DNA of 64,000 nucleotides, taken from positions 744,001 to 808,000 of the forward strand of contig NZ_CP115174.1 in assembly GCF_027625475.1 (NCBI RefSeq), read 5' to 3'. Below are positions 19,728-45,298 of this stretch, in pieces. Both the position numbers and the translations under genes were made by a program. Positions within the stretch are counted from its first letter, which is position 1. Each line of letters begins with the position of its first letter. This DNA comes from Sphingomonas abietis. Its GTDB lineage: Bacteria; Pseudomonadota; Alphaproteobacteria; Sphingomonadales; Sphingomonadaceae. The notes under the pieces are model-generated. The model saw nothing but the letters and a program-made list of their open reading frames with translations, made no database searches and was not told the DNA's origin.

Positions 19728-22700
19728 ATGATGTGGCAATTCTGGATCGATCGCGGCGGCACCTTCACGGACATCGTCGCGCGATCGCCCGACGGGGATA
19801 TCCGTGCCGCGAAGCTGCTATCCGAGGATCCCGACCGTTACGCGGACGCAGCGGTGGAGGGTATCCGCCGGCTGACCGGGGCCGGTATCGACGCGCTGCC
19901 GCCGCTGTCGGTGCGGATCGGCACCACGGTCGCCACCAACGCGCTGCTCGAACGCAAGGGCGAGCCGGTGCTGCTGGCGATCACGCGCGGCTTCGGCGAT
20001 GCGCTGGCGATCGGCTATCAGGAGCGGCCCGATATCTTCGCGCGCCGCATCGATCGGCCGGCCCCGCTCTATGCCGAGGCGATCGAGATCGACGAGCGCG
20101 TCACCGCCGAGGGCGAAGTGCTGGTCCCGCTCGACGAGGCGGCGGCGCGGGCGACGCTGGGAGAGGCTTTCGGCCGAGGCCTGCGGTCGATCGCGATCGT
20201 GCTGATGCACGGCTATCGTCATACCGCGCATGAGGCGACGCTGGCCGGCATCGCGCGCGCGATCGGCTTCACCCAGGTGTCGGTGAGCCATGAGGTCGGG
20301 CCGCTGATCAAGCTGATCGGGCGCGGCGATACCAGCGTGGCCGACGCCTATCTGTCGCCGGTGCTCGGCCGTTACGTGCAGGGCTTCTCCGCCGCGCTGG
20401 GCGAGGGGCAGGCGCCGCTGTTCATGCAATCGAGCGGCGGGCTGATCGAGGGCGCGCGGCTGGCCGGCAAGGACGCGATCCTCTCCGGCCCGGCGGGCGG
20501 CATCGTCGGCATGGCGAAGACGGCGGCGGCGGCCGGCTTCGATCACATCATCGGCTTCGACATGGGCGGCACCTCGACCGATGTGTCGCATTATGCCGGC
20601 GATTATGAGCGCGACACCGAGACGGCCATCGCGGGCGTGCGGCTGCGGGTGCCGATGCTGCGGATCCATACCGTTGCAGCCGGGGGCGGATCGATCTGCC
20701 GGTTCGAGGGCGGCCGTTACCGGGTCGGCCCGGAATCGGCCGGCGCGGTGCCGGGGCCGGCGAGCTACCGGCGGGGCGGGCCGCTGACCGTCACCGATTG
20801 CAATGTGCTGCTCGGCAAGCTCCAGCCCGGCTTCTTCCCGGCGCTGTTCGGGCCATCGGGCGACGAACCGCTCGATGCCGGTGTGGTGGCGCAGCGCTTC
20901 GCCGAAGTCGCCGAAGAGGTGGCGACGGCGACCGGCGCGCGGCCCGATGTGAAGGCGATGGCGGAGGGGATGATCGCCATCGCCGTCGCCAATATGGCCC
21001 ATGCGATCAAGCGCATCTCGGTGGCGCGCGGGCATGATGTCAGCCGCTACACGCTGGCCTGCTTCGGCGGGGCGGGCGGGCAACATGCCTGCCTCGTCGC
21101 CGATGCGCTCGGCATGCGGCGGGTGATGATCCATCCCCATGCCGGCGTGCTCTCCGCCTACGGCATGGGACTGGCCGACCGCACGGTGCTGCGCGAACGA
21201 ACCGTCGCGCTGCCGATCGAGGACGTCGCGGGGATCGGCGCGGCCGCCGGATCGCTGGAGGAGGCCGCCCGGCAGGCGCTCGCGGAGCAGGATATCGGCG
21301 ACGCCGCGATCGAGATTTTGTGCCGCGCACATCTTCGCCTCGCCGGCGCTGACAGCCTGATCGAGGTGATGCTGGATAGGCCGGCGGCGATGCGCGCCGC
21401 CTTCGATGTGGCGCATCGCGCGCGCTTCGGCTTCGTGGCGGCCGGCGACCTGCTCTGCGACATGCTCCAGGTCGAGGCGATCGCACGATCCGGCGAAGGC
21501 GCCGACCTGTCGCGGGCACCGGATGTCGCAGGTCCGCCCGCTGCCAAAGCGAAAGTGGAGGCGTTCCTGGCCGGCGCGTTGCGGACCATGCCGCTCTACG
21601 ATCGCGCCGCGCTGCCGTCCGGCTGGTCGGTCGACGGGCCGGCGCTGGTGATCGATGCCGTCTCCACCACGGTGGTCGAGCCCGGCTGGCGCATCATGGT
21701 CGATCCGCTCGGCAATCTGATCCTCACCCGCACCGCGGCGCTGGGCGTGGCGGCGGCCGGCACCGATGTCGATCCGGTGCGGCTGGAGATCTTCTCCGCT
21801 TTGTTCATGGCGATCGCCGAGGAGATGGGCGCCGCGCTCCAGCATTCGGCGGCGTCGGTGAACATCCGCGAGCGGCTCGATTTTTCCTGCGCGCTGTTCG
21901 ATGCGGGCGGCAACCTGATCGCCAACGCGCCGCACATGCCGGTGCATCTGGGGTCGATGGGCGAGAGCATCCGCACCGTGATCGAGGCGCGGGCCGGGCG
22001 GATGCAGCCCGGCGACGCCTATGCGCTCAACGATCCCTTCGGCGGCGGCACCCATCTGCCCGACATCACCGTCGTCATGCCGGTGTTCGTGGGTGAGCGG
22101 GATGTGGATGGGCAGGACGATGCGCCGGCTTATTATGTCGCGGCGCGCGGCCACCATGCCGATATCGGCGGGATCAGCCCCGGATCGATGCCGCCGGGCA
22201 GTACCCGCATCGATCAGGAAGGCATCATCCTGCGCGACGTGCCGGTGGTGGAGCAGGGCCGCTTCCGCGAGGCCGAACTGCGCGCATTGCTGGCCGAAGG
22301 GCCATGGCCGGCGCGCAATGTCGACCAGAATATCGCGGATCTCCAGGCGCAGGTCGCGGCGTGCGCGCGCGGCGCCGCCGAACTGCGCCGGATCACCGCC
22401 GATTACGGCGCCGATGTCGTCGCCGCCTATATGGAGCATGTCCAGGCCCATGCCGAAGCGGCGGTGCGCGCGATCATCGGGCGGCTGTCCGACGGTGCCT
22501 TCGCCTATGAGATGGACGATGGCGCGGTGGTACAGGTGGCGGTGTCGATCGATCGCGCGCACGGCAGCGCGACGGTGGATTTCACCGGCAGCAGCGCGCA
22601 ACTCGGCAGCAATTTCAACGCGCCGCGTTCGATCACGCGGGCGGCGGTGCTCTATGCCTTCCGCACGTTGTTGGATGAGCCGATCCCGATGAACGATGGC

Positions 22701-23318
22701 TGCCTGCGGCCGATCCGCATCATCGTGCCCGAAGGGTCGATGCTCGATCCGCGTCCGCCGGCCGCGGTCGTCGCCGGCAATGTCGAGACCAGCCAGGTGG
22801 TGACCGACGCGATCTTCGGCGCGCTCGGCGTGATGGCGGCGGCGCAGGGGACGATGAACAACTTCACCTTCGGCAACGCCCGCGTCCAATATTATGAGAC
22901 GATCGCGGGCGGATCGGGCGCCGGCCCCGATTTCGACGGCACCGCCGCCATCCAGACCCACATGACCAACAGCCGCCTGACCGATCCCGAAATCCTCGAG
23001 ACGCGCTTCCCGGTGTTGCTGGAGCGGTTCGCGATCCGCCACGGCTCGGGCGGGCGTGGCGGCCATGACGGCGGCGACGGCGCCGTCCGGGTGATCCGGG
23101 CGCGCGAGCCGATGTCCGCCGGCATTCTCGCCAACCGGCGCCGGGTGCCGCCGTTCGGGCTGGCCGGCGGCGCGCCGGGCGCGGTCGGCACCAACCATGT
23201 CGAGCGCGCCGATGGACGCATCGAACCCTTGCCCGCCACCGCCGCCGTCGAACTGGAGGCGGGCGACCGCTTCGTGATCGAGACGCCGGGCGGCGGCGGC
23301 TATGGCGTGCCGCGCTGA
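19728..23318 (+). CDS. 5-oxoprolinase / hydantoinase A+B fusion
   Basis: 1196 residues. The N-terminal half (about 1-680) is HyuA-like and has an actin/ASKHA-type ATP site ([39 protein letters not shown]). The C-terminal half (about 690-1195) is HyuB-like ([47 protein letters not shown], ending ETPGGGGYG). Fused length and order are those of ATP-dependent 5-oxoprolinase, which opens pyroglutamate to glutamate; fused hydantoinases are the alternative. It leads a four-gene unit with two membrane proteins and DUF2891, and its stop shares one base with the next start. In a peptide-catabolic locus, pyroglutamate freed from N-terminal Gln is a plausible substrate. Confidence 0.85.
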
Positions 23319-23998
23319 TGCTGGTGCTCGCCGGGATCGCGGTGATCGTGCTGGGCTTCCTGCTCCGCTTCAATCCGCTGCTCGTCATTGCCGTATCGGC
23401 GGCCGTGACGGGGTGGGCAGCGGGATTGAGCCCGCTCGCGATCCTCGCGGCGATCGGCAAGGCGTTCAACGGGGTGCGCTATGTCTCGATCATCTGGATC
23501 ATCTTGCCGGTGATCGGCCTGCTCGAGCGCTACGGCTTGCAGGAGCGTGCGCGCATCTTCGTCGCCGGCCTGGCACGGGCGACGGCGGGGCGGCTGCTGA
23601 TCGTCTATCTGCTGTTCCGCCAGATCACCGCCGCGATCGGGCTGAATTCGATCGCCGGGCCGGCGCATACGGTGCGGCCGCTGGTCGCGCCGATGGCGGA
23701 GGCACTGGCCGAGACGCAGGCCGGGCCGTTGGACGACGGGCAGCGCGAGCATATCCGGGCGATGGCCGCCGCCACCGACAATGTCGGGGTGTTCTTCGGG
23801 GAGGACATCTTCCTCGCCATCGGCTCGGTGCTGCTGATTAAGGGGCTGCTCGAACAGTTCGGCATCGTCCTCCAGCCGTTCAGCCTGTCGCTGTGGGCGA
23901 TCCCGAGCGCGATCGCCGCCTTCCTGATCCACGGTGCGCGCCTGCTGTGGCTGGACCGGCGGCTCGGCCGGCAGATGGCTCGAAGGGCGGCGCGATGA
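23318..23998 (+). CDS. DUF969 family membrane protein
   Basis: 226 residues with about five hydrophobic segments (VLAGIAVIVLGFLLRF, LLVIAVSAAVTGWAAG, YVSIIWIILPVIGLLERYG and others) and the RQITAAIGLNSIAGPAHTVRPLVAPM block typical of DUF969. It always occurs with a DUF979 partner; here that gene starts inside its stop (ATGA). In Bacillus the DUF969/DUF979 pair, as I recall, lies beside pyroglutamyl peptidase. With a 5-oxoprolinase immediately upstream, the pair is best read as a two-component permease, possibly for 5-oxoproline. That function is inference. Confidence 0.8.
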   Translation: MLVLAGIAVIVLGFLLRFNPLLVIAVSAAVTGWAAGLSPLAILAAIGKAFNGVRYVSIIWIILPVIGLLERYGLQERARIFVAGLARATAGRLLIVYLLFRQITAAIGLNSIAGPAHTVRPLVAPMAEALAETQAGPLDDGQREHIRAMAAATDNVGVFFGEDIFLAIGSVLLIKGLLEQFGIVLQPFSLSLWAIPSAIAAFLIHGARLLWLDRRLGRQMARRAAR

Positions 23999-24927
23999 TC
24001 GGGCTGCCCTTCATCTATACGGTCGCGGGCGTGATGTTCGCGCTCTATGCGACGCTGAGTCTCGCTGATCGGCGTTTGGCCAATGCCGCCTTCTGGGGTC
24101 TGCTGGCGCTGAGCTTTCTGTTCGGCGATCGGCTGGGCGATATCGCCAATGGCTGCCTCGTGCTGGGGCTGGTCGCGGTCGCGGCGACCGGGCGGATGCG
24201 GCGTTCGGGCAGCGAGGACGGCGCTGATCGCAGCGCGGAAGCCGCGCGCCGGGGCAATCGCCTGTTCCTGCCCGTGCTGATCGTGCCGGTGGTGGCGCTG
24301 GTCGGCACGCTGGCCTTCTGGCGGTGGCCGGGGCTGGCCGATCCCAAGCAGGCGACGCTGGTGGCGCTGGCGCTGGGCGTGCTGATCGCGCTGGCGGTCG
24401 CCTGCGCCTGGCTGCGCCCGCATCCGGCGACGCCGCTGCGCGAAGGCCTGCGGCTGATGGACTCGGTCGGCTGGGCGGCGGTGCTGCCGCAGATGCTGGC
24501 GAGCCTCGGCGCGGTGTTCGCGCTGTCGGGCGTCGGCACGGTCGTGGGCGGCCTGATCGGGCATATGGTGCCGCAGGGCAGCCTGATCGGTGCGACGATC
24601 GCCTATGGACTCGGCATGGCGCTGTTCACCATCGTGATGGGCAATGCCTTCGCCGCCTTTCCGGTGATGATGGCGGCGGTCGGCCTGCCGTTGCTGATCC
24701 ACGGCCAGCATGGCGATCCGGCGGTGATCGCGGCGATCGGGATGCTGTGCGGCTTCTGCGGCACCCTGCTGACGCCGATGGCGGCCAATTTCAACATCGT
24801 GCCGGCGGTCCTGCTCGACCTGAAGGATCGCCATGGCGTGATCCGCGCGCAGGCGCCGACCGCGCTGCCGCTGCTGGCGGTCAACATCCTGCTCATCCTC
24901 TGGCTCGCTTTTCCAGGACATTCATGA
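23995..24927 (+). CDS. DUF979 family membrane protein
   Basis: 310 residues from the ATG at 23995, which overlaps the preceding stop by four bases. About eight to nine hydrophobic segments are seen, with conserved glycine-rich loops (SGVGTVVGGLIGHMVPQGS, FTIVMGNAFAAFPVMMAAVGLP, LCGFCGTLLTPMAANFNIVP). Together with DUF969 it probably forms an inner-membrane transporter. The same ATGA overlap joins it to the DUF2891 gene, indicating translational coupling through the whole operon. Confidence 0.8.
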   Translation: MIGLPFIYTVAGVMFALYATLSLADRRLANAAFWGLLALSFLFGDRLGDIANGCLVLGLVAVAATGRMRRSGSEDGADRSAEAARRGNRLFLPVLIVPVVALVGTLAFWRWPGLADPKQATLVALALGVLIALAVACAWLRPHPATPLREGLRLMDSVGWAAVLPQMLASLGAVFALSGVGTVVGGLIGHMVPQGSLIGATIAYGLGMALFTIVMGNAFAAFPVMMAAVGLPLLIHGQHGDPAVIAAIGMLCGFCGTLLTPMAANFNIVPAVLLDLKDRHGVIRAQAPTALPLLAVNILLILWLAFPGHS

Positions 24928-25904
24928 CCCCCGAGACCGCTGCCCGCTTCGCCCGCCTCACCCTCGCCCATGTCGGCCGCGAATATCCCAACAAGCTCGA
25001 TCATGTGATGGCCGGGCCGGAGGATGCGCGCACCCCGTCCGAGCTTCACCCGATCTTCTACGGCAGCTTCGACTGGCATAGCTGCGTGCATGGCTGGTGG
25101 CAGTTGCTGCGGCTGGCGCGGCTGCATCCCGATCTCCCCGAAAGCGCCCTCATCCGGGACCGGGCGGACGCGATGCTGACGGTGGAGAAGATGGCGGGCG
25201 AACTCGCCTATCTCGATCGCCCGGCGTCGGCCGGCTTCGAGCGGCCTTATGGCTGGGCGTGGGCGATGGCGCTCCATCACGAGGCGGCCGGCACGCGATG
25301 GGAAGGCGTGCTGGCGCCGCTGGCCCATGCCTTCGCCGATCGCTGGCAGGCCCATCTGCCCAAGCTCACCTATCCCATTCGGGCCGGTGCCCATTCCAAC
25401 ACGGCATTCGCGCTGATCCATGCCTTTGACTGGGCCGTCGATTTCCGGCCGGAACTGGCAGCGACGATCCGTGAGCGGGCGACGCACTGGTATGCAGCGG
25501 ACAAGGGCTGCCAGGCCTGGGAGCCGAGCGGCGACGATTTCCTGTCGCCGGCTTTGTGCGAGGCTCAGTTGATGAGCCGCGTGCTCGGCCCGGAGCAATT
25601 CGCGCCATGGTTCGATGGCTTCCTGCCGGATGCGGCGGTGGCGCGCCCGGCGACGCTGTTCATGCCCGCGTATGTCTCCGATCGCAGCGATGGCAAGATC
25701 GCGCATCTCGACGGGTTGAACCTCAGCCGTGCCTGGTGCTGGCGGGCGATCACCGCCGCGCTGGGCGCTTCGCATCCGGTTGTGCCGCTGGCGAAGGCGG
25801 CGGCCGAGCGCCATCTGGATGCCAGTCTGCCCCATATCGCGGGGGACTATATGGGCGAGCATTGGCTGGCGACTTTCGCGCTTTTGGCGATCGATCAGGG
25901 CTGA
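24924..25904 (+). CDS. DUF2891 family protein
   Basis: 326 residues, soluble, without a signal peptide. It is rich in Trp and His with an alpha-toroid look: SELHPIFYGSFDWHSCVHGWW near residue 40, GWAWAMALHHEA, RAGAHSNTAFALIHAFDWA, and GLNLSRAWCWRAI near the C-terminus. The repeated helical blocks and aromatic/acidic residues recall (alpha/alpha)6 barrels, but no function is established for DUF2891. Operon position after 5-oxoprolinase and its putative transporter ties it to the same substrate. Confidence 0.75.
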   Translation: MTPETAARFARLTLAHVGREYPNKLDHVMAGPEDARTPSELHPIFYGSFDWHSCVHGWWQLLRLARLHPDLPESALIRDRADAMLTVEKMAGELAYLDRPASAGFERPYGWAWAMALHHEAAGTRWEGVLAPLAHAFADRWQAHLPKLTYPIRAGAHSNTAFALIHAFDWAVDFRPELAATIRERATHWYAADKGCQAWEPSGDDFLSPALCEAQLMSRVLGPEQFAPWFDGFLPDAAVARPATLFMPAYVSDRSDGKIAHLDGLNLSRAWCWRAITAALGASHPVVPLAKAAAERHLDASLPHIAGDYMGEHWLATFALLAIDQG

Positions 25905-25977
25905 CGACGACCATGTCCGTCCACCACTTTCATTTCACCGCCGCGCACAATTTGTCTGTTGCCTTGATAAAGGATAC

Positions 25978-25985
25978 CGTATACG
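25978..25985. promoter_or_regulatory. Putative hydroxyproline-regulon operator 1 (CGTATACG)
   Basis: The palindrome CGTATACG, in the context GATACCGTATACGAAATA, lies 31 bases before the deaminase ATG. The same 8-mer occurs at 35446-35453, upstream of the D-amino-acid dehydrogenase. A GTATAC core is typical of several GntR/FadR-family operators. Confidence 0.55.
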
Positions 25986-26016
25986 AAATAGGGAACCGCT
26001 TGGAGGAAAGATTTTT

Positions 26017-26937
26017 ATGACCGCTTCGCCGACCCTTTGGAAAGGCGTCTACCCGGCTGCGACCACCCAGTTCGCCGAAGACCTGTCGATCGATCTGGAT
26101 TACACGCAGCGCGTCCAGACCGCGCTCGTCGATGATGGCGTGGACGGGCTGATCCTGCTCGGCACCTGCGGCGAGAACAACTCGCTTGAGCATGACGAGA
26201 AGCGCACTGTCCTGAAGGGCGGCGTCGAAGCCGTCGGTGGCCGCGTGCCGCTCGTCGCCGGCGTGTCCGAATTCACCACCGCGCGCGCGATCGAATATGT
26301 GAAGGATGCCGAGAAGATCGGTGTCGACGCGCTGATGCTGCTGCCGGCGATGGTCTATGTGCCGACCACCGAGGAACTGGTCGCCCATTTCCGCGCCGTC
26401 GCCGAGGCAACCTCGCTGCCGATCATGCTCTACAACAATCCGCCGGCCTATCGCGTCAACGTCTCGTTCGAGGCGCTCGAGGGTCTGCGCGACGTCAAGA
26501 ACATCGTCGCGGTCAAGGAAAGCGCGCCCGACGCGCGCCGCTTCACCGACGTGCTCAACCGCTTCGGTGATCGCTACACCGTGATGGCCGGTCTCGACGA
26601 CGTGGCGCTCGAGGGCATGGCGCTCGGTGCGTCCGGCTGGGTCTCCGGCCTGACCAGCGCCTTCCCGGAAGAGTCGGTGCGCCTGATCGCCGCCTTCTAC
26701 GAGGGCAAGTGGGAAGAGGCGCGTGCCATCTACCGCTGGTTCATGCCGCTCCTCCACCTCGATGCCGAGCATGATCTCGTCCAGTCGATCAAGCTCGCCG
26801 AGCAGATCATGGGCCGTGGTTCGGAGCGCGTCCGTATGCCGCGCATGCCGCTGACCGGTCAGCGGCGCGCCGACGTGATCAAGTGGGTCGAGGAGGCTGC
26901 GGCCACCCGGCCGAGCCAGCAGGCCAAGGCCGCCTAA
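26017..26937 (+). CDS. DHDPS-family aldolase/deaminase, probable pyrroline-4-hydroxy-2-carboxylate deaminase
   Basis: 306 residues from the ATG at 26017, supported by TTGGAGGAAAG at good distance. It is a Schiff-base TIM barrel of the dihydrodipicolinate synthase family: GLILLGTCGENNSL loop, Tyr139 in MLYNNPP and Lys167 in IVAVKES. In hydroxyproline catabolism a member of this family (LhpC/HypD) deaminates 1-pyrroline-4-hydroxy-2-carboxylate to alpha-ketoglutarate semialdehyde. A hydroxyproline 2-epimerase gene follows 29 bases later, which favours this role over 2-keto-3-deoxy-arabonate dehydratase or lysine biosynthesis. A CGTATACG operator-like site precedes it. Confidence 0.8.
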   Translation: MTASPTLWKGVYPAATTQFAEDLSIDLDYTQRVQTALVDDGVDGLILLGTCGENNSLEHDEKRTVLKGGVEAVGGRVPLVAGVSEFTTARAIEYVKDAEKIGVDALMLLPAMVYVPTTEELVAHFRAVAEATSLPIMLYNNPPAYRVNVSFEALEGLRDVKNIVAVKESAPDARRFTDVLNRFGDRYTVMAGLDDVALEGMALGASGWVSGLTSAFPEESVRLIAAFYEGKWEEARAIYRWFMPLLHLDAEHDLVQSIKLAEQIMGRGSERVRMPRMPLTGQRRADVIKWVEEAAATRPSQQAKAA

Positions 26938-26966: not shown

Positions 26967-27965
26967 ATGCGCCACACCTTCTTCTGCATCGACGGCCATA
27001 CGGCGGGCAATCCTGTCCGCCTGGTGACCGGTGGCGCACCGCTGCTCCGCGGCACCAACATGATCGAGCGGCGCCAGGATTTCCTGGCCCGCTTCGACTG
27101 GATCCGCACCGGCCTGTGCTTCGAGCCGCGCGGCCACGACATGATGTCGGGCGGCTTCCTCTATCCGCCGACCCGCGAGGATGCCGATTGCGGCATCCTG
27201 TTCATCGAGACCTCCGGCTGTCTGCCGATGTGCGGGCACGGCACGATCGGCATGGTGACGTTCGGGCTGGAAAACGGCCTGATCACGCCGCGCGAGCCGG
27301 GCAAGCTGCGCATCGAGGTGCCGGCCGGCCTCATCGACATCGAATATGGCGCCGAGGGCAATCGCGTCCGCTGGGTCCGCATCCGCAACGTGCCGGCCTA
27401 TGTCGCCGCCACCGGCGTGCAGATCGACGTGCCGGGCTTCGGCCCGCTCAGCATCGATGTCTCCTATGGCGGCAATTATTACGCGATCGTCGAGCCGCAG
27501 GGTGCATATACCGGGCTGGACGATCTCGGCGCGTCGCGCATCGTGGAACTCAGCCGCACCGTCCGCACGCTGATGCAGGCGGCCTATGAGCCGATCCATC
27601 CGCTGGACGATCGCATCCGCGGCGTCACCCATGTGCTGTGGGCCGACAAGCCGCGCGGCGAGGGTGCCGATGGCCGCAATGCCGTGTTCTACGGCGAGCG
27701 CGCGATCGATCGCAGCCCGTGCGGCACCGGTACGTCGGCGCGGCTGGCGCATCTCGTCCACAAGGGCGTGCTGAAGGTCGGCGATCGTTTCGTCCACGAA
27801 AGCTATATCGGCAGCCGTTTCATCGGCCGGGTCGAGGAAGCGGTAGACGTGGGCGGCGTGCCGGGTATCATCCCCTCTATCGAGGGATCGGCGATCGCGA
27901 CCGGTTTCAACACGATCTGGATCGATCGCGAAGACCCCTTCTGGGCGGGCTTCTCGGTCGTCTGA
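26967..27965 (+). CDS. 4-hydroxyproline 2-epimerase (proline racemase family)
   Basis: 332 residues. Both catalytic cysteines of the two-base racemase mechanism are present: Cys89 in LPMCGHGTIG and Cys252 in DRSPCGTGTSARLA. This excludes the trans-3-hydroxyproline dehydratase branch, which has Thr in place of one Cys. The CIDGHTAGNPVRLV N-terminus is the family signature. It converts trans-4-hydroxy-L-proline to cis-4-hydroxy-D-proline in the cytoplasm. Neighbours are the deaminase before it and an amino-acid permease 23 bases after it, one probable transcript. Proline racemase activity is less likely given the deaminase and D-amino-acid dehydrogenase nearby. Confidence 0.85.
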   Translation: MRHTFFCIDGHTAGNPVRLVTGGAPLLRGTNMIERRQDFLARFDWIRTGLCFEPRGHDMMSGGFLYPPTREDADCGILFIETSGCLPMCGHGTIGMVTFGLENGLITPREPGKLRIEVPAGLIDIEYGAEGNRVRWVRIRNVPAYVAATGVQIDVPGFGPLSIDVSYGGNYYAIVEPQGAYTGLDDLGASRIVELSRTVRTLMQAAYEPIHPLDDRIRGVTHVLWADKPRGEGADGRNAVFYGERAIDRSPCGTGTSARLAHLVHKGVLKVGDRFVHESYIGSRFIGRVEEAVDVGGVPGIIPSIEGSAIATGFNTIWIDREDPFWAGFSVV

Positions 27966-36735: not shown

Positions 36736-37929
36736 ATGACCATCGGAGGTTCCACCACCGCGGCTGAACTGGCCGCGATCAGCCGCTGGACGGCGTGCGC
36801 GCCCGCGATCACCCGTGAGGAGCGGCTGCAGCGGATCGAGCGGGCGCGCGCCTTCACCAGCGCGATGGGCGCGGACGCATTGCTGATCAACGCCGGCGCA
36901 TCGCTGCGCTATTTCGCCGGTGTGCCGTGGGGTGCGACCGAGCGGCTGGTGGCGATGCTGCTGCCGGTGCGGGGCGAACCGATCATGGTCTGCCCGAATT
37001 TCGAGCTGGGCTCGCTGCAGGCGGACCTGCTGATCGACGTCGACATCCGGCTGTGGGAAGAGGACGAAGACCCGCACGCGCTGGTCGCCGATGCGCTGGC
37101 GGGGATCGGCGGGCGGACGGTGGCGATCGATCCGGCCTTGCCCTTCCAGATGGCCGAGCGCCTGCGCCGTGCCGCGCCCGGCATCGTGCTGGTGGATGGC
37201 GCGCCGGCGATCGACGGCTGCCGGATGCGGAAATCCCCGGCCGAGATCGCGCTGATGCAGCAAGCCAAGGACATGACGCTGGAGGTGCATCGCCGCGCCG
37301 CGCGGATCATGGCGCCGGGCATCACCACCACCGAGGTGAAGCGCTTCATCGACGAGGCGCACCGGGCGATGGGAGCAAGCGGCTACAGCTTCTGCATCGT
37401 CCAATATGGTCGCGCCACCGCCTTCCCGCACGGCCTTCCCGGCGAACAGCGGCTGGAGGAAGGCGATCTCGTGCTGATCGACACCGGCTGCACGATCGAG
37501 GGCTATCATTCGGACATCACGCGAACTTACGCCTTTGGCAATCCGTCCGACGACCAGCGGGCGATCTGGAATCTGGAAAAGGAGGCGCAGGCGGCTGCCT
37601 TCGTCGCCGCGATGCCGGGTGCCCCGTGCGAGACGGTCGACGCGGCGGCGCGTTCGGTGCTGGAGAAGGGTGGGCTCGGCCCCGATTATCGCCTGCCGGG
37701 CCTGCCGCATCGCACCGGCCACGGCATCGGCCTGTCGATCCACGAACCCGCCTATCTGGTGCGGGGCGACCGGACATTGCTGGATACGGGCATGTGCTTT
37801 TCCAACGAGCCGATGATCGTCGTGCCCGATCGCTTCGGCGTGCGGCTGGAGGATCATTTCTACATGACCGACGCCGGCCCCCGCTGGTTCACCGAGCCGC
37901 AGCCGGCGATCGACCGGCCCTTCGTCTGA
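36736..37929 (+). CDS. M24B metallopeptidase (Xaa-Pro aminopeptidase/dipeptidase type)
   Basis: 397 residues from the ATG at 36736 with GAGGAAG upstream. An N-terminal creatinase-like domain covers about 1-165 and the pita-bread catalytic domain about 175-390. All five metal ligands are seen: Asp249 (VLIDTG), Asp260 (SDITRTY), His329 (TGHGIG), Glu358 (SNEPM) and Glu372 (LEDHF). There is no signal peptide, so it is cytoplasmic. Such enzymes cleave Xaa-Pro or Xaa-Hyp bonds, releasing (hydroxy)proline. Co-transcription with the D-amino-acid dehydrogenase links peptide cleavage to hydroxyproline oxidation. Confidence 0.88.
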   Translation: MTIGGSTTAAELAAISRWTACAPAITREERLQRIERARAFTSAMGADALLINAGASLRYFAGVPWGATERLVAMLLPVRGEPIMVCPNFELGSLQADLLIDVDIRLWEEDEDPHALVADALAGIGGRTVAIDPALPFQMAERLRRAAPGIVLVDGAPAIDGCRMRKSPAEIALMQQAKDMTLEVHRRAARIMAPGITTTEVKRFIDEAHRAMGASGYSFCIVQYGRATAFPHGLPGEQRLEEGDLVLIDTGCTIEGYHSDITRTYAFGNPSDDQRAIWNLEKEAQAAAFVAAMPGAPCETVDAAARSVLEKGGLGPDYRLPGLPHRTGHGIGLSIHEPAYLVRGDRTLLDTGMCFSNEPMIVVPDRFGVRLEDHFYMTDAGPRWFTEPQPAIDRPFV

Positions 37930-38038: not shown

Positions 38039-38317
38039 ATGCATATGAGCATCAGCAGCGACAATCTTCTTCTGGCGTTTGTGCTCTGGATCGTGGTCGG
38101 CGCGATCATCGGCTGGCTGGCCGGCCTGCTCGTGCAGGGCGGCGGCTTCGGCTTCATCGCCGACGCGCTGATCGGCATCTTCGGCTCGGTGGTGGCCGGC
38201 TGGCTGTTCCCGCATCTGGGTATCACGCTGGGTGGCGGACTGATCGGGTCCGTCCTGGCATCGATTGCGGGCGCGGTGATCGTGATCGTGGTGATCAGGC
38301 TGCTGCGACGAATCTAG
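38039..38317 (+). CDS. GlsB/YeaQ/YmgE (transglycosylase-associated) small membrane protein
   Basis: 92 residues, three hydrophobic segments (LLLAFVLWIVVGAIIGWLAG, FIADALIGIFGSVVAGWLF, LIGSVLASIAGAVIVIVVIRLL) with the glycine-zipper pattern of the family, a general stress-linked inner-membrane protein of unknown activity. GAGGG lies five bases before the ATG; a second ATG is two codons on. It appears unrelated to the neighbouring catabolic genes. A 10-bp hairpin follows the stop. Confidence 0.88.
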   Translation: MHMSISSDNLLLAFVLWIVVGAIIGWLAGLLVQGGGFGFIADALIGIFGSVVAGWLFPHLGITLGGGLIGSVLASIAGAVIVIVVIRLLRRI

Positions 38318-38554: not shown

Positions 38555-38563
38555 GAAAGTCTA

Positions 38564-41509
38564 TCAGAAGTTGATGCTGGCGCCGACGAACATCTCGCGG
38601 CCCATCACGTCGTAGACGCCGGCAAAGGTGTTGCCGTTGCCGAACGAGGTCAGGATGTTGGTGGCGATCGCCGGCGGATCCTTGTCGGCGATGTTGTTGA
38701 CGCCGGCCCGCAGCTCGAGCTGCTTGTTGATGGCGATCGTCCCGGCCAGATCGAAGTAGTTGTAGGTCGGGATGTGGCTGTTGATCACGCTGCTTTCGCC
38801 CGTGTCGGACAGCTTGACCTTGTTGAGGTAGCGCCAGGACACCGACAGCGACGCATCGCCGGGGATCATCCAGGTCAGGCGCGCGGCGTGGTGCCAGGTC
38901 GGGTTGGGCTCGCCGCACGAATAACCGAACGTGCCCTTGCATTCGAAGGAGGCGAAGCCGGGCTGCGGCTGTTCCTTCTGATGCAGAAGCCAGGTGCCCA
39001 CCAGATTGGCGTTGATCTTGCCGAACTTGCCGATGCCGAAGGTGTAATCGACATTGAAGTCGACACCCGAGGTCATCAGATAGCCGGTGTTGAGCGTGGT
39101 CGCCTCGACATAGCCATCGTTCACCGTGCTGCCGAACAGCGCGCCGGTGGTCGGGTTGCGGTGGAACAGGTTACAATAATAGGTGTTCCCGGTCATGCAC
39201 TGGCTGATGATCAGGGACGGATCGAGCGAGCCGATATAGTCCTTGACCTTGATGTGGTAGTAATCCGCCGAGAAGGAGAAGTTGCGGATCTGGCGCGGCG
39301 TGAGCACGAGGCCGAACGTGTAGGTGTTCGCCTTTTCCGGCTTCAGCTTGGCATTGCCGCCGTACAGTTCGCTGCAGGTGTCGGCCGGGCACTGAATGAT
39401 ATGGCCATATTGCGCGGAGGAAACGCCGGACAGCGCGCAGACTTGCGCGGAGTATTGCGGATTGGAACCGGCGCAAGGATCGTCAGTGGTGACATTGCCG
39501 ACGCCGCCCGGGCCGAACAGCTCGCTGATGTTGGGCGCGCGGATCGCCCGGTTGAAGCTGGCGCGCAGGCGGGCATCGGCGACCGGCGCCCAGTTCACTT
39601 CGGCCTTGAACGTCTTGGCGTTGTAGTTCGAGCTCGTGTCGGTGGAGCTTTGCTCATTGTGATAATGGGAATAGCGCGCACCGCCGTTGAGCGTGAGGGC
39701 ATGGGCGAAGGGCAGATCCTGAAGGACCGGAATTTCGATCTCGCCATAGCCTTCCGTGACGGTGACTCGTCCATCGGTCGGAACTGAGCCGCCCTCCTGC
39801 GCGATCGCATCGGCAGTATATTGCAGTGATTCATGGCGACGCTCCGCACCCAGCGCGATGCTGACGCCGCGATTCGCCCACGGGCTCTTGATGCCGAAGG
39901 TTCCCAGGTCGCCGTTGATGTTGGCCGAAATGACCGTCATCGTGTCGCGCTCGGCGGTATTGCTGTCGGCGAACAGATATTGCGCCTGATCGGAGGTGAT
40001 GCCGTTGGCCTTGAAGATGTCGATCGGCACGCAGCTCGGGTCGGTACCATCGACGACCGACTGGCAGGTCGCGGTGCCGTTGACATTGACGGCATCGATC
40101 GCACGCTGGGCTTTGACCGTATCGACGTTGTTCTGATAGGTCTCGTTATACTTCACCAGCGAGTGGAGATAGTTGACGTCGTAGCTGAAGCCGTGGCCGA
40201 TATCGCCGCGGACACCCGCCGTGTAGCGGAAGTCGTTGTGACGAAGATCGTCGCGACGCGAAAAATCATTGTTGAGGCGGTAGCCGATCAGCGTGTCGAT
40301 CTTGGCGCTGGTTCCCGCCGCCGAGCCGCACAGCGCCGTCGCCTGCTGGCTGCTCATCAGCGGATTGTCGCAGTTCAGGGTGAAGTTGCTGCCGAGGAAC
40401 AGGGCGGATGGCGCCACCTGCGAGAAGGTGTGATCGCGCATGTACATGAAGCTGCCATAGACTTCGGCGGCCGGGCTGATCTTGAACTTGCCGAACGAGC
40501 CGGCGGTGTAGCGCTGATCCGAGCGCTGGATATAATTGCTGGGCGAGTAATTATAGGCGTAGCTGGTGTCGTAGGGCACCCAGGTCTTGGACCCGTCCTT
40601 GGCGTTGGTCAGATAGCCCATGCCAGCGCTCGGGCCGCTCTCCGGCGCGAAGGTGCCATATTGCGAGCTGCTCGATCCGCCGCAGTAGAGACCGGCGCCG
40701 TTGACGGTATCGGTGTCGAGCTGGTTGAGCGCGCAGTTGGAGACATCGCGGGTCGATTCCAGCACCGGATCGGTGTGGCGATAGCCGCCATAGACGGTGA
40801 TGTTGCCGCGGCCTTCGGCGAAATTCTTGCCATAGGCCGCATTGATGTCCTGTTTGGCGCCATCCAGCACATTGCTGGGGGCGTTGTTGAAGCCCTCGGC
40901 GGTGTTGAGCCCGCGCACATAGTTATCGCCATTGCTGTGCTGCGAGATGCCGGTCTGCATATCCATGCGGAAACCATCGAGATGGTCCTTCAGCACGAAA
41001 TTGACCACGCCGGCGACGGCGTCCGAGCCGTAGACGGCGGAGGCGCCGCCGCTGACCACGTCGATCCGGTCGATCAGCGCGGACGGCACGAAGTTGATGT
41101 CGACATTCTGCGACGACATCATGCGCTGGCCGTTGATCAAGGTCAGCACGCGGCTGGCGCCGAGGTTGCGCAGATTGATCTTGGCGGTGCCGTCCGAGCC
41201 GTTCGACATGTTCTCGTTGGCGTCGGCGGTGAACTGCGGCATCCGGTTCAGGATGTCCTCCGCGTTGACCGCGCCTTCATATTTGATCTCTTTGCTGCTG
41301 ATCGTGGTCAGCGGGCTGTTGCTTTCCAGATCCGGGCGCTTGATGCGCGTGCCGGTCACGACGATCGCGTCGGCGTCCGAACTGGCGCTCGGCTGGCTCG
41401 ACGACGTGGGTGCAGGCGTCACCTGCGTATAGGCACTGCTCGCCAGCAGGCCCGTCATCAATGCACCGATCGCGGCAGTGCGATGCGTTTTACGAAGTGT
41501 CCTTGCCAT
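38564..41509 (-). CDS. TonB-dependent outer-membrane receptor of the peptide/glycopeptide locus
   Basis: 981 residues, ATG preceded by GGGGAAATAA. Signal peptide is followed by a low-complexity linker and AIVVTGTRIKRPDLESNSPL (TonB-box region). The plug contains ILNRMPQF, RVLTLINGQRMMSSQNVDI and DVVSGGASAVYGSDAVAG. The beta-barrel ends in EMFVGASINF with the terminal Phe typical of Omp85-inserted proteins. It is the same subclass as the receptor at 2795-5632. Its location between the prolidase/dehydrogenase genes and the glycosidase-like/POT pair suggests uptake of peptides or glycopeptides across the outer membrane. TATACGATA in its promoter partly matches the CGTATACG sites. Confidence 0.9.
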   Translation of the reverse strand: MARTLRKTHRTAAIGALMTGLLASSAYTQVTPAPTSSSQPSASSDADAIVVTGTRIKRPDLESNSPLTTISSKEIKYEGAVNAEDILNRMPQFTADANENMSNGSDGTAKINLRNLGASRVLTLINGQRMMSSQNVDINFVPSALIDRIDVVSGGASAVYGSDAVAGVVNFVLKDHLDGFRMDMQTGISQHSNGDNYVRGLNTAEGFNNAPSNVLDGAKQDINAAYGKNFAEGRGNITVYGGYRHTDPVLESTRDVSNCALNQLDTDTVNGAGLYCGGSSSSQYGTFAPESGPSAGMGYLTNAKDGSKTWVPYDTSYAYNYSPSNYIQRSDQRYTAGSFGKFKISPAAEVYGSFMYMRDHTFSQVAPSALFLGSNFTLNCDNPLMSSQQATALCGSAAGTSAKIDTLIGYRLNNDFSRRDDLRHNDFRYTAGVRGDIGHGFSYDVNYLHSLVKYNETYQNNVDTVKAQRAIDAVNVNGTATCQSVVDGTDPSCVPIDIFKANGITSDQAQYLFADSNTAERDTMTVISANINGDLGTFGIKSPWANRGVSIALGAERRHESLQYTADAIAQEGGSVPTDGRVTVTEGYGEIEIPVLQDLPFAHALTLNGGARYSHYHNEQSSTDTSSNYNAKTFKAEVNWAPVADARLRASFNRAIRAPNISELFGPGGVGNVTTDDPCAGSNPQYSAQVCALSGVSSAQYGHIIQCPADTCSELYGGNAKLKPEKANTYTFGLVLTPRQIRNFSFSADYYHIKVKDYIGSLDPSLIISQCMTGNTYYCNLFHRNPTTGALFGSTVNDGYVEATTLNTGYLMTSGVDFNVDYTFGIGKFGKINANLVGTWLLHQKEQPQPGFASFECKGTFGYSCGEPNPTWHHAARLTWMIPGDASLSVSWRYLNKVKLSDTGESSVINSHIPTYNYFDLAGTIAINKQLELRAGVNNIADKDPPAIATNILTSFGNGNTFAGVYDVMGREMFVGASINF

Positions 41510-41580
41510 TTATTTCCCCAGCGCCTTTTGTGGCTTGTGGAAACGAATGCAACATGATCGTCACGCGATGTCAAATATTT

Positions 41581-41589
41581 TATACGATA
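41581..41589. promoter_or_regulatory. Partial match to the hydroxyproline-regulon motif
   Basis: TATACGATA matches one side of the site at 35446 (GTATACGATA) and lies 72 bases upstream of the TonB receptor ATG. The palindrome itself is not complete (TTTATACGATAT), so this is weaker than the other two sites. Confidence 0.3.
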
Positions 41590-41630
41590 TTCCTTATGAC
41601 AAAATTGTAACAGCTCGCGAGCGGCGGATA

Positions 41631-43955
41631 TCAGCCAATTTCAATCCTGACCTTCCGGACCCGGTGATCGGCTGCGGCGATGGGAATGTCCCCGAAGGCG
41701 GTGGCGATGGCCGTCTTCCCATCCACGAAGGCCCGGCGAATCTGTCGATCGGCGGGCAGGCGGACACGTAACAATGTTTCGCGGGGGGCCTTGGCGGGAA
41801 GCGAGATTTCGCCTTCGATGATGCCCGGCCCGCTCCGGCGAAGCGAGAATCCAACCTTTCCCCAGCGGGTCGGCGCGTCCCGGATCGCGATCGGTTGACC
41901 CGACATGATCCATCGCGTCGGCACCGCGCGGGCGAGATGGAGGCGATCGGCGTCCTGGTCCTCGTAGACGAGCATCCAGCGGACCAGTTTCGGAATGGTC
42001 AGCTGTGCCGGGATGCAGAACAGCGCCAGACCGCCATCGATGCCGGAGACCTCGCCCCCCATCCAGCTGCCGCGCGTATGGGCGTGGAAGCGGTGAGAAT
42101 AGAGGAACAGCAGATACTCCTCGATCCGGTCGAGCCGCAGCAGCGCCTCGGCATAGCCATAGGAGATGAAGCCCAATATGTCGCGGCTTGCGGGATCGGG
42201 CCGGCCGATATTGGCGACCACGCCCAGCGTCGTGCCGCCATGGCCACGCAGGCAATCCACCACCAGCGCTTCCAGATCGGGTGGCAGCACGCCGGGCTGG
42301 AGCAGCTCGGCATAGGCGCGGTGCGGCCAGCCCTGTTCCGATTCATTCTCGGCGGTGAGCGCCTCGCGGAAGGTGTTGGTGACGCCCGGCAGCGGGCCGA
42401 CATAGGGCGGCGTCAGGTCATGGCGGATATTGGCGCGCAGCCGCTGCTCGAGATGCTGCTGGAGGCGCGTCGCGCGCGCCGACCAGTCCGCCGCATCCTG
42501 GGTGCTGCCGCCGATCGCCGGCCAGATCGCGGCGATCTCGCGCCAGCCCCGAACGGCGAAGGCCGAGTTGGCCCAATAGGGCTTCCACCAGATCGTCGGA
42601 TCGGGATGGAGGCAGGAATCGGATTCGTTCCAGCCGTGGATCAGCCCGAAGCCGCGATCGGCCGCGGGCAGGGCGAGGCTCTGGTCGTGCAGGTCGGTGA
42701 GCAGCGTCACGGTCGCGCGGATCTTGTCGCGATGCTTCACCAGCGTCGCGAGGTCGCCGGTCAGCCGCAGATAGCGGGCGAGTAGCGCCAGGGTGAGTCC
42801 ATATTGCGCGGTCTCCGGTCCGCGCATGTCGACCAGGCCGTCGGGCAGGACGAAGGCGGTGAAATACTGGTCGAGCACCGCGCGTGCCTGCGCGAACCGG
42901 CCCCATAGCAGATTGGCGTAGAGCGAGCTCGTGAACGTGTCCTGGAAGCCGTCATATTCCGAGCCATAATAGTCGCGATCGACCGCGCCATATTTGGGCC
43001 AGACCCCGTTGGGGCGGATCACCAGCTCCTTGGCGAAGGCGTGATCGACCATGTCGGTCCATTCGGGATCGGGCAGGGTGGCCTTGGCACCCTCGGCCAG
43101 CTCGGCCTGCCAGCTGCGCGCGAAGCGGAACATCGCGGTGTAGAAGGCTTCCGGTGTCGGATGCTGGCGGCGGGGCGGATAGGGGGCGTAGCTGTGGCCG
43201 TAATCGGCCTCGACGATGCGGCCCTGCTCGATGCGGAGCGTGCGATGCCAGGTCTCGACGATGAAGCGGTTGTCGGCATCGACATCGGCGAAGACGAGCA
43301 GATCCCAATGCCCGCCCGCCTCATGTCCGCCCGTCTTGCGCGGGATGACCTTGTGGACGGCTGGCAGCCAGCCGCCGAGCAGCCCTTCGCGGCGCTGGAG
43401 CGCGCTGTCGTCGCCGGACAGTTCGGGAAAGCGATGCTCGGGGCGGTAGGTGCGGGTCCGGCCATTGCGGAACACCGGCATGGTGTCCTCGGCCTGTTTG
43501 GTGCCGACCAGTGCCGTCCAGGGCAGGCGCGTGCCGATCTCGTCGGGCTTGAAGTTCGAGGCGCTCGGCGGGGCCGCGTCGCGCACCCGATCCGGATCGG
43601 GATCACCGCCGCCGGCGAGCAGCGCGTCGGCGAGCAGATCGGCATCGGCGAGCGCGATATCCCGCATCGCGAGGCCGAGATGGGGCGGATCGGCGGTGGC
43701 GAACATCGCCTCGGTGCGCTTGGCGAGCACGAGCGTGCCGGCGGCCGAGACGAAGCTGATCGCGCCGTCGGGATCGCGCAGATCCTCCCATACCGTCCAG
43801 CGTTCGCCGTCGATCTCGATGTCGAGCAGGCGGCTATGGCCGGCGACGGCGCTGGCGGGAAGCCGGGGCAGCGCCGGTGCGGCGCGCAGCGCTGTTGCCG
43901 TGCTGGCGGCGGCCGCGCCCGCCACCGAGGATTGCAGGAAATCGCGGCGGTTCAT
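41631..43955 (-). CDS. Tat-exported glycoside-hydrolase-like (alpha/alpha toroid) protein
   Basis: 774 residues from the ATG at 43955, which overlaps the POT transporter stop (ATGA). The N-terminus NRRDFLQSSVAGAAAAS is a twin-arginine signal. Next come a beta-rich region (about 40-300), a long helical region with repeated Trp/Tyr/Glu-rich turns as in (alpha/alpha)6 glycosidases (DGFQDTFTSSLYANLLWGRF, GLIHGWNESDSCLHPDPTIWW, ENESEQGWPHRAYAELL), and a C-terminal beta domain. Conserved acidic residues in the toroid could be catalytic. I cannot assign a GH family; enzymes acting on arabinosyl or other plant-derived glycans have this architecture. Pairing with a peptide transporter suggests a glycopeptide substrate. 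Confidence 0.65.
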   Translation of the reverse strand: MNRRDFLQSSVAGAAAASTATALRAAPALPRLPASAVAGHSRLLDIEIDGERWTVWEDLRDPDGAISFVSAAGTLVLAKRTEAMFATADPPHLGLAMRDIALADADLLADALLAGGGDPDPDRVRDAAPPSASNFKPDEIGTRLPWTALVGTKQAEDTMPVFRNGRTRTYRPEHRFPELSGDDSALQRREGLLGGWLPAVHKVIPRKTGGHEAGGHWDLLVFADVDADNRFIVETWHRTLRIEQGRIVEADYGHSYAPYPPRRQHPTPEAFYTAMFRFARSWQAELAEGAKATLPDPEWTDMVDHAFAKELVIRPNGVWPKYGAVDRDYYGSEYDGFQDTFTSSLYANLLWGRFAQARAVLDQYFTAFVLPDGLVDMRGPETAQYGLTLALLARYLRLTGDLATLVKHRDKIRATVTLLTDLHDQSLALPAADRGFGLIHGWNESDSCLHPDPTIWWKPYWANSAFAVRGWREIAAIWPAIGGSTQDAADWSARATRLQQHLEQRLRANIRHDLTPPYVGPLPGVTNTFREALTAENESEQGWPHRAYAELLQPGVLPPDLEALVVDCLRGHGGTTLGVVANIGRPDPASRDILGFISYGYAEALLRLDRIEEYLLFLYSHRFHAHTRGSWMGGEVSGIDGGLALFCIPAQLTIPKLVRWMLVYEDQDADRLHLARAVPTRWIMSGQPIAIRDAPTRWGKVGFSLRRSGPGIIEGEISLPAKAPRETLLRVRLPADRQIRRAFVDGKTAIATAFGDIPIAAADHRVRKVRIEIG

Positions 43956-45298
43956 GCTGCTTCTCCGGCAGGGTTGAGCGGCGCCGAAAGCACGCCGCGC
44001 AGCGCCATTGCGATCAGCACGCCGGCGGCGGCGATGGCGCCATGCAGCGCCCAGAACCGCACCGGCCCGAGCGGCCCGTAGAAACGCGCGAGCCAGCCGC
44101 CGGTGAGGTTGGCGACGAACAGCCCGGCATAAGCGACGCCCATCAGCGTCGCCGTCAGCCGCACCGGTGCTGCGCGTGAGACGGCGGCGAGCAGCACCGG
44201 CATCACGAACAGATAGGCGGAGGAGGAGAGCAGGAAATAGCCGAAGCCCCACAGGACGCCGAGCGAATGGGCACCGGGCGAGATCTGGGCGAAGATCGCC
44301 AGCAGCGCATCGGCCGCCGCCATCATCGCGCAGCCGATCGCGAACTTGACCGGCACGCGCGGTTCGCGCCCCGCCGCCGCCTGTCGCTTCCACAGCAGGA
44401 TGATGATCGGCGTCGATAGCACCGTGATCAGGCCGTCGCTGGCCAGATACCAGGCGATCGGCATCTCGAAGCCGCCGATGTGGCGGTTGGCGGCAGCGTC
44501 GATCCACAGCGGGAAGACGTTGTAGCCCTGAGAGAAGGGCACATTGTAGCAGGCCGACAGCGCCACCAGCCCGAGCAGGGCGGCGATGCGCTTGCCGTCG
44601 CCGACGGCGCCCTGCTCGCGCACCACCGAGCGTCCGCGTGGGCGATCGGCGGGGAGATAACGCCAGCCCGACGCATAGATGACGATGCCGATCAGCATCC
44701 CGAAGCCGGCGCTGGCAAAGCCGAGATGCCAGCCATGGCTCTCGCCGATCGTGCCGCAAATCAGTGGCCCTGCGAAGGCGCCGATGTTAATGCCGAAGTT
44801 GAACAGCAGAAAGGCGCGGTCCCGCCGCGCATCGCCGGCATCGTAGAGCCGGCCGACCTGGGTGGCGATATTGCCCTTGAGGCACCCCGATCCGAGGATC
44901 AGCGCGGCGAGCGCGATCAGGAAGCTCGCATCGAAGGCGAGCAGGAAATGCCCCGCCGCCATCAGCGCCGCGCCGAGCAGCACGGTGCGCCGGCCGCCAA
45001 GCAGTCGATCGCCGACCAGTCCGCCCAGCAAGGGCGTCAGATAGACGAGACCGGCATAGAGGCCGAAAATCTGTGAGGCGAGCGCCTGATCGGACAGCGG
45101 CCCGGTCACCGCCTCCACGGCATCACGGAAGCCGGCGAAGCCCCACACTTTCCGCTCGGGTGCGGACGGCAGCAGGGTCGTCGCCATGTACAGCACGAGC
45201 AGCGCCTGCATGCCGTAGAAGGAGAAGCGCTCCCAGGCCTCGGTCAGCGAAAGGATCGGCAGGCCGCGCGGATGGCGGGCAGGCGCGGTGTCGGTCAT
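43952..45298 (-). CDS. POT/PTR-family proton-dependent oligopeptide transporter
   Basis: 448 residues from the ATG at 45298 (an in-frame ATG lies 12 bases upstream; neither has a clear ribosome site). About twelve to fourteen membrane segments. The POT signature EAWERFSFYGMQALLVLYM is in helix 1, and FLLFNFGINIGAFAGPLICG in helix 5 matches the second PTR2 signature. It imports di- and tripeptides with protons across the inner membrane. The downstream Tat-exported glycosidase-like gene overlaps its stop, so peptide import and glycan removal are coupled in expression. Confidence 0.9.
   Translation of the reverse strand: MTDTAPARHPRGLPILSLTEAWERFSFYGMQALLVLYMATTLLPSAPERKVWGFAGFRDAVEAVTGPLSDQALASQIFGLYAGLVYLTPLLGGLVGDRLLGGRRTVLLGAALMAAGHFLLAFDASFLIALAALILGSGCLKGNIATQVGRLYDAGDARRDRAFLLFNFGINIGAFAGPLICGTIGESHGWHLGFASAGFGMLIGIVIYASGWRYLPADRPRGRSVVREQGAVGDGKRIAALLGLVALSACYNVPFSQGYNVFPLWIDAAANRHIGGFEMPIAWYLASDGLITVLSTPIIILLWKRQAAAGREPRVPVKFAIGCAMMAAADALLAIFAQISPGAHSLGVLWGFGYFLLSSSAYLFVMPVLLAAVSRAAPVRLTATLMGVAYAGLFVANLTGGWLARFYGPLGPVRFWALHGAIAAAGVLIAMALRGVLSAPLNPAGEAA

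Follow-up and report, generated by a model that had tools for sequence, protein, structure and literature searches.

Gene content and conservation of the hydroxyproline cluster

We analysed a 64,000-nucleotide stretch of the Sphingomonas abietis chromosome (NZ_CP115174.1, positions 744,001 to 808,000; hereafter the window, meaning the whole of this stretch) and, within it, a gene cluster at 26.0–45.3 kb that we predict to be the hub of a regulon for the use of plant hydroxyproline-rich glycoproteins (HRGPs). Genes were called from open reading frames (ORFs) and codon-position GC followed by Pfam and NCBIfam matching, and start codons and signal-peptide-like N-termini were assessed by eye.

Protein families and their linkage point to a pathway for 4-hydroxyproline (Hyp) catabolism, since an epimerase with two cysteines lies close to a DadA-type dehydrogenase and a dihydrodipicolinate synthase (DHDPS)-type deaminase; a GntR/FCD regulator, two permeases, four peptidases or hydrolases, a TonB-dependent receptor and a Tat-signal protein complete the cluster (Table 1). 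The S9, DUF885 and alpha/beta hydrolase (ABH) genes overlap by 4 nt on the minus strand, with the ABH start assumed at 30551, and the POT and Tat-protein genes also overlap by 4 nt. No signal peptide was seen by eye in the M24 dipeptidase. A first-pass annotation of this DNA had named these genes, and all of them were found in place with family support, including the epimerase with both cysteines and the three overlapping hydrolases with signal-peptide-like starts; it had overlooked the DUF969, DUF979 and DUF2891 genes (23318–25904).

A scan for the epimerase found 357 relatives, of which the best 80 loci (78–92% identity, up to 10 kb of flank on each side) were analysed. Most of the loci carried the DadA, DHDPS, GntR, APC and M24 genes, and accessory genes were found in smaller numbers (Table 1). 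The counts for the receptor, Tat and POT genes are lower bounds because the gene order of the window places them beyond the fetched flank; with these limited flanks the Tat protein had no match at E ≤ 1e-10 in the 80 loci, and the receptor also sits past M24 in the extended loci L099 and L108. Among 149 genomes of the family, the epimerase (E ≤ 1e-60) was present in 17. Linkage in relatives bears out the earlier proposal of a unit made up of Hyp catabolism, peptidases and the uptake of peptides. The gene-order comparison suggested with it gave a divided answer, in which the Hyp core is linked (DadA in 69 and DHDPS in 66 of 80 loci) and the 5-oxoproline genes described below are not.

Some relatives differ in detail. 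Eleven of the 80 loci, of the S. paucimobilis type (L049–L052, L055, L056, L062, L066 and L068–L070), have DadA and M24 genes, but their fetched DNA lacks a gene for a DHDPS-type deaminase; another enzyme may perform the deaminase step there. An Ldh_2-family dehydrogenase, which we take to be possibly a pyrroline-2-carboxylate reductase, is close to the epimerase in 15 of the 80 loci (L014, L018, L019, L035, L037, L041, L047, L053, L060, L072, L073, L077, L078, L081 and L082) and also occurs in the arabinofuranosidase gene run of S. abietis itself (L120:9777-10823). A gamma-glutamyltranspeptidase (GGT) gene adjoins the cluster in two Sphingopyxis loci (L035:13317-15158, L041:13317). Between the M24 and receptor genes of the window lies a gene for a small Transgly_assoc (PF04226) protein (38039–38317), a place where L099 and L108 have arabinofuranosidase and alpha-galactosidase genes. 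Genes for two proteins, one of DNA polymerase III alpha type and one weakly similar to impB/mucB, lie at the right border (45428–50406); to us the pair resembles the ImuB-DnaE2 mutagenesis cassette.

Table 1. Features called in the window, in window positions; the last column gives the number of relatives' Hyp loci with a match, out of 80
Feature	Position	Strand	Support	Loci
Aldehyde dehydrogenase (ALDH), candidate alpha-ketoglutarate-semialdehyde dehydrogenase, putative activity	8805-10379	+	PF00171	7
5-oxoproline operon (oxoprolinase, DUF969, DUF979, DUF2891 in order), outside the Hyp system	19728-25904	+		0
5-oxoprolinase	19728-23318	+	Hydantoinase_B 651 bits	0
DUF969	23318-23998	+		0
DUF979	23995-24927	+		0
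DUF2891	24924-25904	+		0
Putative operator ATACCGTATACGAAAT	25974-25989		27.1 bits, 2 mismatches to palindrome; 43 bp before DHDPS start (DHDPS-epimerase-APC promoter)	
DHDPS-type deaminase, predicted substrate	26017-26937	+	PF00701 E 5e-55; Lys167 in AVKES	66
4-hydroxyproline 2-epimerase	26967-27965	+	NCBIfam PRK13971 541.7 bits (cut-off 376); Cys pair in MCGHG, SPCGTG	
APC amino-acid permease, predicted Hyp uptake	27989-29410	+	PF13520	57
ABH, MetX-like	29460-30590	-	PF00561; PRK06489 506 bits (cut-off 305); signal-peptide-like start	5
DUF885 metallohydrolase-like protein	30548-32263	-	PF05960 484 bits; HEGVPGHH; signal-peptide-like start	33
S9 dipeptidyl-peptidase-IV-like peptidase	32260-34575	-	GASAGG; signal-peptide-like start	9
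HypR-like regulator of the GntR/FCD type, predicted palindrome-binding protein	34654-35352	-	PF00392 + PF07729	63
Putative operator ATAACGTATACGATAA	35442-35457		26.1 bits; GntR-DadA divergent promoter, 41 bp before DadA start	
FAD-dependent DadA-type dehydrogenase, predicted D-Hyp dehydrogenase	35483-36721	+	PF01266	69
M24 Xaa-Pro dipeptidase	36736-37929	+	Residues 3-396 match the solved proline dipeptidase 5cik with 517.7 bits	51
TonB-dependent receptor	38564-41509	-	PF00593 + PF07715	26
Putative operator ATATCGTATAAAATAT	41575-41590	-	23.4 bits; 81 bp before receptor start	
Tat-signal (alpha/alpha)6-barrel protein, candidate glycosidase	41631-43955	-	No Pfam family	0
POT-family oligopeptide permease	43952-45298	-	TIGR00924 226.5 bits (cut-off 130.2)	3

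A shared palindrome in the promoters of the cluster

A palindrome, ATATCGTATACGATAT, was common to the DNA upstream of the DHDPS gene and to the GntR-DadA gap in relatives. A scoring matrix was built from 12 sites in the relatives' DHDPS and GntR-DadA promoters, none of them from this genome; a thirteenth site, being out of register, was discarded, as were some near-identical sites. In the window the matrix gave 3 sites of at least 20 bits (Table 1), while 0 of 40 first-order shuffles reached 16 bits. The putative operator is thus common to the promoter of the GntR gene itself and to the hyp promoters, which is consistent with a HypR-type regulator.

The whole genome was scanned for the palindrome, allowing at most 3 mismatches, in a pattern search rather than a matrix search, so that weaker sites escape; this gave 9 places, compared to 0 for the reversed control. 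Seven of the 9 score well (21–27 bits), 3 in the window and 4 elsewhere, among the latter the divergent promoter of a PF07944 and an S9 gene (22.7 bits), a GH27 promoter (22.2 bits) and a DUF885 promoter (25.4 bits). The other two places, C1:859550 and C1:2438023, were put down to chance, as they score 12 bits and lie inside predicted genes. These results suggest that the regulon also includes three chromosomal loci beyond the window, near 1.29, 1.85 and 2.38 Mb.

Among relatives, DHDPS is preceded by a site of at least 15 bits in 62 of 64 cases, the receptor gene in all 19, PF07944 in 12 of 17 and DadA in 40 of 68; the receptor and PF07944 sites lie outside the training set, and the DHDPS and DadA counts partly include training loci. 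Lower fractions were seen for DUF885 (8/19), Ldh_2 (6/14), GntR (11/63), epimerase (10/78), M24 (9/51), APC (2/57) and ALDH (2/7), and none for GGT (0/2) and ABH (0/1). The gene-body control gave 0 for all families except the epimerase (3/78).

Beta-L-arabinofuranosidase genes accompany the hydroxyproline genes in a number of relatives

Extended loci of relatives contain PF07944 beta-L-arabinofuranosidase genes in four cases (L099, L101, L102 and L108), past M24 or on the opposite side of the cluster, a GH27 alpha-galactosidase gene in two and a GH2 gene in one, together with receptor-Tat-POT, receptor-Tat or receptor-POT sets, and the extended congener G083 (L105, L106) contains none of them; GH43 genes also lie near the Hyp cluster in some relatives. 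In the 80 loci with limited flanks, PF07944 occurred in 17 and GH27 in 4. Across the family, PF07944 was found in 11 of 17 epimerase-positive compared to 5 of 132 other genomes (Fisher p = 3e-9, ignoring relatedness), and in 8 of the 11, which carry 8 genus labels, it lay within 12 kb of the epimerase, where 0.12 would be expected (Poisson, relatedness ignored); this genome, G123 and G069 are the exceptions. A panel of 40 epimerase genomes, hand-picked from the 80 loci, included 29 with PF07944, and in 23 of them its distance from the epimerase was at most 20 kb (0.6 expected, relatedness ignored). The two panels overlap in part, as identical coordinates show (for example G002 = G083, G003 = G163, G021 = G123). 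The proximity count in the 40 genomes used 63 of 65 PF07944 rows, two second pieces of one frame having been dropped; in G007 the nearest match is a weak fragment with a full-length one about 10 kb off, and the match in G011 is weak.

S. abietis has a single PF07944 gene (C1:2377897). Its product is closest by sequence to the solved structure 5opj (E 1.6e-136), which we take to be the GH146 enzyme BT0349, and keeps the cysteines at EHCN and WCC. The gene is flanked by Ldh_2, DUF885 and GH43 genes on one strand and by S9 and DUF5695 genes on the other, a mix that resembles that of the relatives, and the GH43 protein, encoded in the same operon-like run, is closest to solved xylosidase/arabinofuranosidases. 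Both a zinc site of the Cys3-Glu type and a Cys nucleophile are common to GH127 and GH146 enzymes, and the Xanthomonas enzyme XeHypBA1, which is given as GH146, has Araf-beta-Hyp as its main substrate (PMC10850190). Together, these results tie a GH127/GH146 beta-L-arabinofuranosidase to the Hyp genes, by the operator here and by linkage in relatives.

DUF5695 proteins of about 900 residues recur beside Hyp or arabinofuranosidase genes (L120:15616-18531, L099:16728-19451, L008:17432-20191), and the gene in L099 has an operator-like site of 17.3 bits at its start.

The Tat-signal protein and the variable hydrolase genes

The structure model of the Tat-signal protein (pLDDT 83.9) has a glycosidase-like (alpha/alpha)6-barrel fold. 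None of 34 family members matched a Pfam glycosidase family, and the profile of the protein had no match at E ≤ 10 among PDB sequences. Structure comparison by VIA-align did not lead to a specific family either, and no GH121 label appeared among the 50 matches listed. The earlier description of the protein as glycosidase-like therefore agrees with the predicted fold and finds no counterpart in Pfam; on the basis of that model the protein is a candidate glycosidase.

The slot between the APC and GntR genes holds ABH, DUF885 and S9 genes here, DUF885 and S9 in L003, ABH alone in L005 and L006, S9 in L007 and DUF885 in L013, and it is empty in L008–L011. Identities are 81–90% (ABH 90% in L005 and L006; DUF885 82–83% in L003 and L013; S9 81–82% in L003 and L007). 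Because the slot holds different subsets of genes across relatives, these hydrolases look accessory to the Hyp cluster and appear to be gained or lost separately.

Candidate semialdehyde dehydrogenases and a sugar-acid cluster

A route from peptide to 2-oxoglutarate had been proposed for the 19.7–45.3 kb stretch. The enzyme families would carry it as far as alpha-ketoglutarate semialdehyde, and no aldehyde dehydrogenase was present among the genes scanned in 26–45.3 kb, although the pathway itself needs no clustering. A candidate for the last step lies at 8805–10379; none of the 25 NCBIfam models listed for it exceeds its cut-off, and its homologues (59–64%) occur in 7 of the 80 Hyp loci. A second candidate, beside a DHDPS gene at C1:2288935, is 62% alike to the first, and the two paralogues score alike against most Hyp-linked homologues. 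No operator-like site was found before either gene.

The first candidate belongs to a sugar-acid cluster (8805–17959), 8 kb from the Hyp cluster, that also encodes GguC/AraD1 (523 bits, cut-off 340), a dihydroxyacid dehydratase (1030 bits, cut-off 684) and its own GntR/FCD regulator. The L-arabinonate dehydratase model stayed below its cut-off in this cluster. The two clusters may both end at alpha-ketoglutarate semialdehyde; if the sugar-acid cluster is the non-phosphorylating L-arabinose route, both main components of extensin would converge on a single intermediate.

Proposed function and alternative explanations

Taken together, the gene content, linkage and shared operator lead us to propose, with a probability of roughly 0.68, that a HypR-like regulon for the use of plant HRGPs, chiefly extensin, has its hub at 26.0–45.3 kb. 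Extensin carries Hyp-O-beta-L-arabinosides and Ser-O-galactose (PMC7933510), and the predicted regulon includes enzyme families suited to either glycan. Outside the cytoplasm, the GH146-like beta-L-arabinofuranosidase, GH43 and GH27 enzymes encoded elsewhere would strip these sugars, probably joined by the Tat-signal (alpha/alpha)6 protein. The TonB receptor would import fragments, the S9 and DUF885 enzymes would cleave the Pro/Hyp-rich backbone, and the POT and APC permeases would bring in small peptides and Hyp. M24 would then split Xaa-Hyp and Xaa-Pro; the epimerase, DadA-type dehydrogenase and DHDPS-type deaminase would convert Hyp to alpha-ketoglutarate semialdehyde, and a dehydrogenase encoded elsewhere would convert the semialdehyde to 2-oxoglutarate. 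The GntR/FCD protein is predicted to repress these genes through ATATCGTATACGATAT as long as neither Hyp nor a derivative of it is present. The substrates, the protein that binds the operator, the direction of regulation, the effector and the compartment of each step are all inferred from sequence.

Several observations weigh against this proposal. A distance of 1.6 Mb separates the PF07944 gene of S. abietis from the Hyp cluster, and the tie in this genome therefore depends on the operator; PF07944 is on a different contig from the epimerase in G123, G069, G021, G037 and G038 (G021 having the coordinates of G123). Eleven of the 40 epimerase genomes have no PF07944 match, among them the near congener G002 (= G083), which also has no receptor-Tat-POT homologue past M24 (L105, L106). 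In relatives, a site lies upstream of GH27 in only 1 of 4 cases, of POT in 1 of 3 and of S9 in 1 of 5; in the window, the S9-DUF885-ABH block has no operator of its own (best −0.9 bits) and POT-Tat is preceded only by a weak site of 12.7 bits. A 21.0-bit site at C1:103313-103328 (L134:9313) is just 5' of a phosphoenolpyruvate (PEP) carboxylase ORF, with no obvious role. The semialdehyde dehydrogenase is represented by candidates outside the cluster, and GH146, GH43 and GH27 enzymes act as well on arabinan, arabinogalactan proteins (AGPs) or galactosides.

The last point leads to a different explanation, in which free Hyp and Pro-rich peptides are scavenged and the glycosidases are co-regulated since plant material supplies both, their targets being arabinan or AGPs rather than extensin. 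Beta-L-arabinofuranosides do occur in AGPs, arabinan and rhamnogalacturonan-II too (PMC10850190), and the similarity of the GH43 protein to solved xylosidase/arabinofuranosidases fits such targets; however, the co-location of PF07944 with the epimerase and their shared operator suggest a Hyp-linked sugar, and we consider pure scavenging unlikely. The first-pass annotation had allowed either collagen-like or plant HRGP fragments as the substrate. A cluster that joins peptidases and Hyp catabolism for animal collagen or gelatin fragments, as in Colwellia and Shewanella, would follow the peptide-to-Hyp logic published for Alteromonadales (PMC5343134; PMC7883544), but this genome has no M9 collagenase that passes the cut-off of 26 bits for the family (best match 20.7 bits, outside the cluster), for which reason collagen was rejected as the main substrate, and the regulon and the relatives have arabinofuranosidases and alpha-galactosidases instead. 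We therefore regard the collagen explanation as quite unlikely, and the plant half of the earlier alternative is favoured because of the linkage and operator evidence.

The same annotation had treated all of 19.7–45.3 kb as one system for pyroglutamate and hydroxyproline in peptides. The two parts are adjacent and co-directional, with 112 bp between the DUF2891 and DHDPS genes; nevertheless, the oxoprolinase, DUF969, DUF979 and DUF2891 proteins had no match at E ≤ 1e-10 in the DNA fetched at the 80 Hyp loci, which included at least 3 kb before the epimerase in 69 and at least 7.3 kb in 65. Of the 149 genomes of the family, 54 have DUF969, and the epimerase is missing from 43 of these; in the 10 other genomes with both, DUF969 is non-adjacent in every one (on one contig but 0.35–2.3 Mb apart in 4, on separate contigs, partly of draft assemblies, in 6). 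Five short DUF969 loci have all four 5-oxoproline genes in order in 4 cases and the last three in the fifth, and two congeners have the complete four-gene set distant from the Hyp cluster. The best operator score before the oxoprolinase is 2.4 bits here and below zero in the two congeners. DUF969/DUF979 with oxoprolinase form an operon for the utilisation of 5-oxoproline (PMC12795558, which cites Niehaus 2017), in which a preliminary Campylobacter mutant experiment points to DUF969/979 as the transporter genes (PMC12795558); the match to that operon here is the neighbour at 19.7–25.9 kb and not the Hyp system. A single system is thus very improbable. Because linkage in relatives and an operator are both lacking, 19.7–25.9 kb is, on sequence grounds, a separate conserved 5-oxoproline operon merely beside the Hyp cluster, with enzyme specificities predicted from families, and keeping the pyroglutamate genes apart from the Hyp genes avoids misleading annotation.

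Comparison with known systems

No plant-HRGP version of a Hyp regulon was recognised among the matches listed in searches of open-licence papers. Collagen-type HypR regulons and extensin deglycosylation are each known, and no system joining the two was recognised among the papers listed. On the deglycosylation side, the Bifidobacterium HypBA1/HypBA2/HypAA and Xanthomonas XeHypBA1/BA2/AA systems (PMC6085000, PMC10850190) use GH127/GH146 and GH43 enzymes to remove arabinose from extensin Hyp; the available excerpts describe the use of the sugar and do not mention Hyp catabolism or adjoining peptidases. Extensins form one of the major protein networks of plant walls, with structural and defensive roles, and bacterial use of them is described, in those excerpts, for the arabinose side chains. 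If the proposal made here is true, leaf and root bacteria consume the backbone too, and the enzymes involved can be read off from a single operator motif, several of them belonging to families without known function (DUF885, DUF5695 and the Tat protein), so that HRGP degraders and their enzymes become a testable gene list.

Among collagen-type systems, the Colwellia cluster (PMC7883544) resembles the one described here in its size of about 21 kb and in combining a TonB receptor, a transporter, peptidases and Hyp catabolism, and differs in its M9 collagenase and prolyl isomerases and in that its excerpt mentions no plant-glycan enzymes. Streptomyces HypR (PMC6608401) is a GntR/FCD repressor, which controls Hyp genes and a putative M9 collagenase, but its motif, CTNTGC(A/C)ATGTCAC, is unlike the palindrome found here. 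A further parallel is the HypR regulon of Proteobacteria, including the S. meliloti hyp genes (Leyn 2016, PMC5343134), where a GntR protein similarly stands over epimerase, dehydrogenase and deaminase genes; in Alteromonadales this regulon adds collagenases, proline dipeptidases, a peptide permease and a TonB transporter, with collagen as the polymer, and a term search of the main text of that paper did not return "glycosidase". We tentatively suggest, at somewhat less than even odds, that sphingomonads and other Alphaproteobacteria may possess the plant counterpart of the collagen regulon, in which a Hyp-sensing GntR repressor would govern the complete use of extensin, sugar and protein, through one 16-bp palindrome, and in which the Tat protein, perhaps with DUF5695, would represent glycosidases of a family not yet described, with Hyp- or Ser-linked glycans as their substrates. 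Compared to the published HypR regulon (PMC5343134), beta-L-arabinofuranosidase, GH43 and GH27 enzymes would here take the place of the collagenase.

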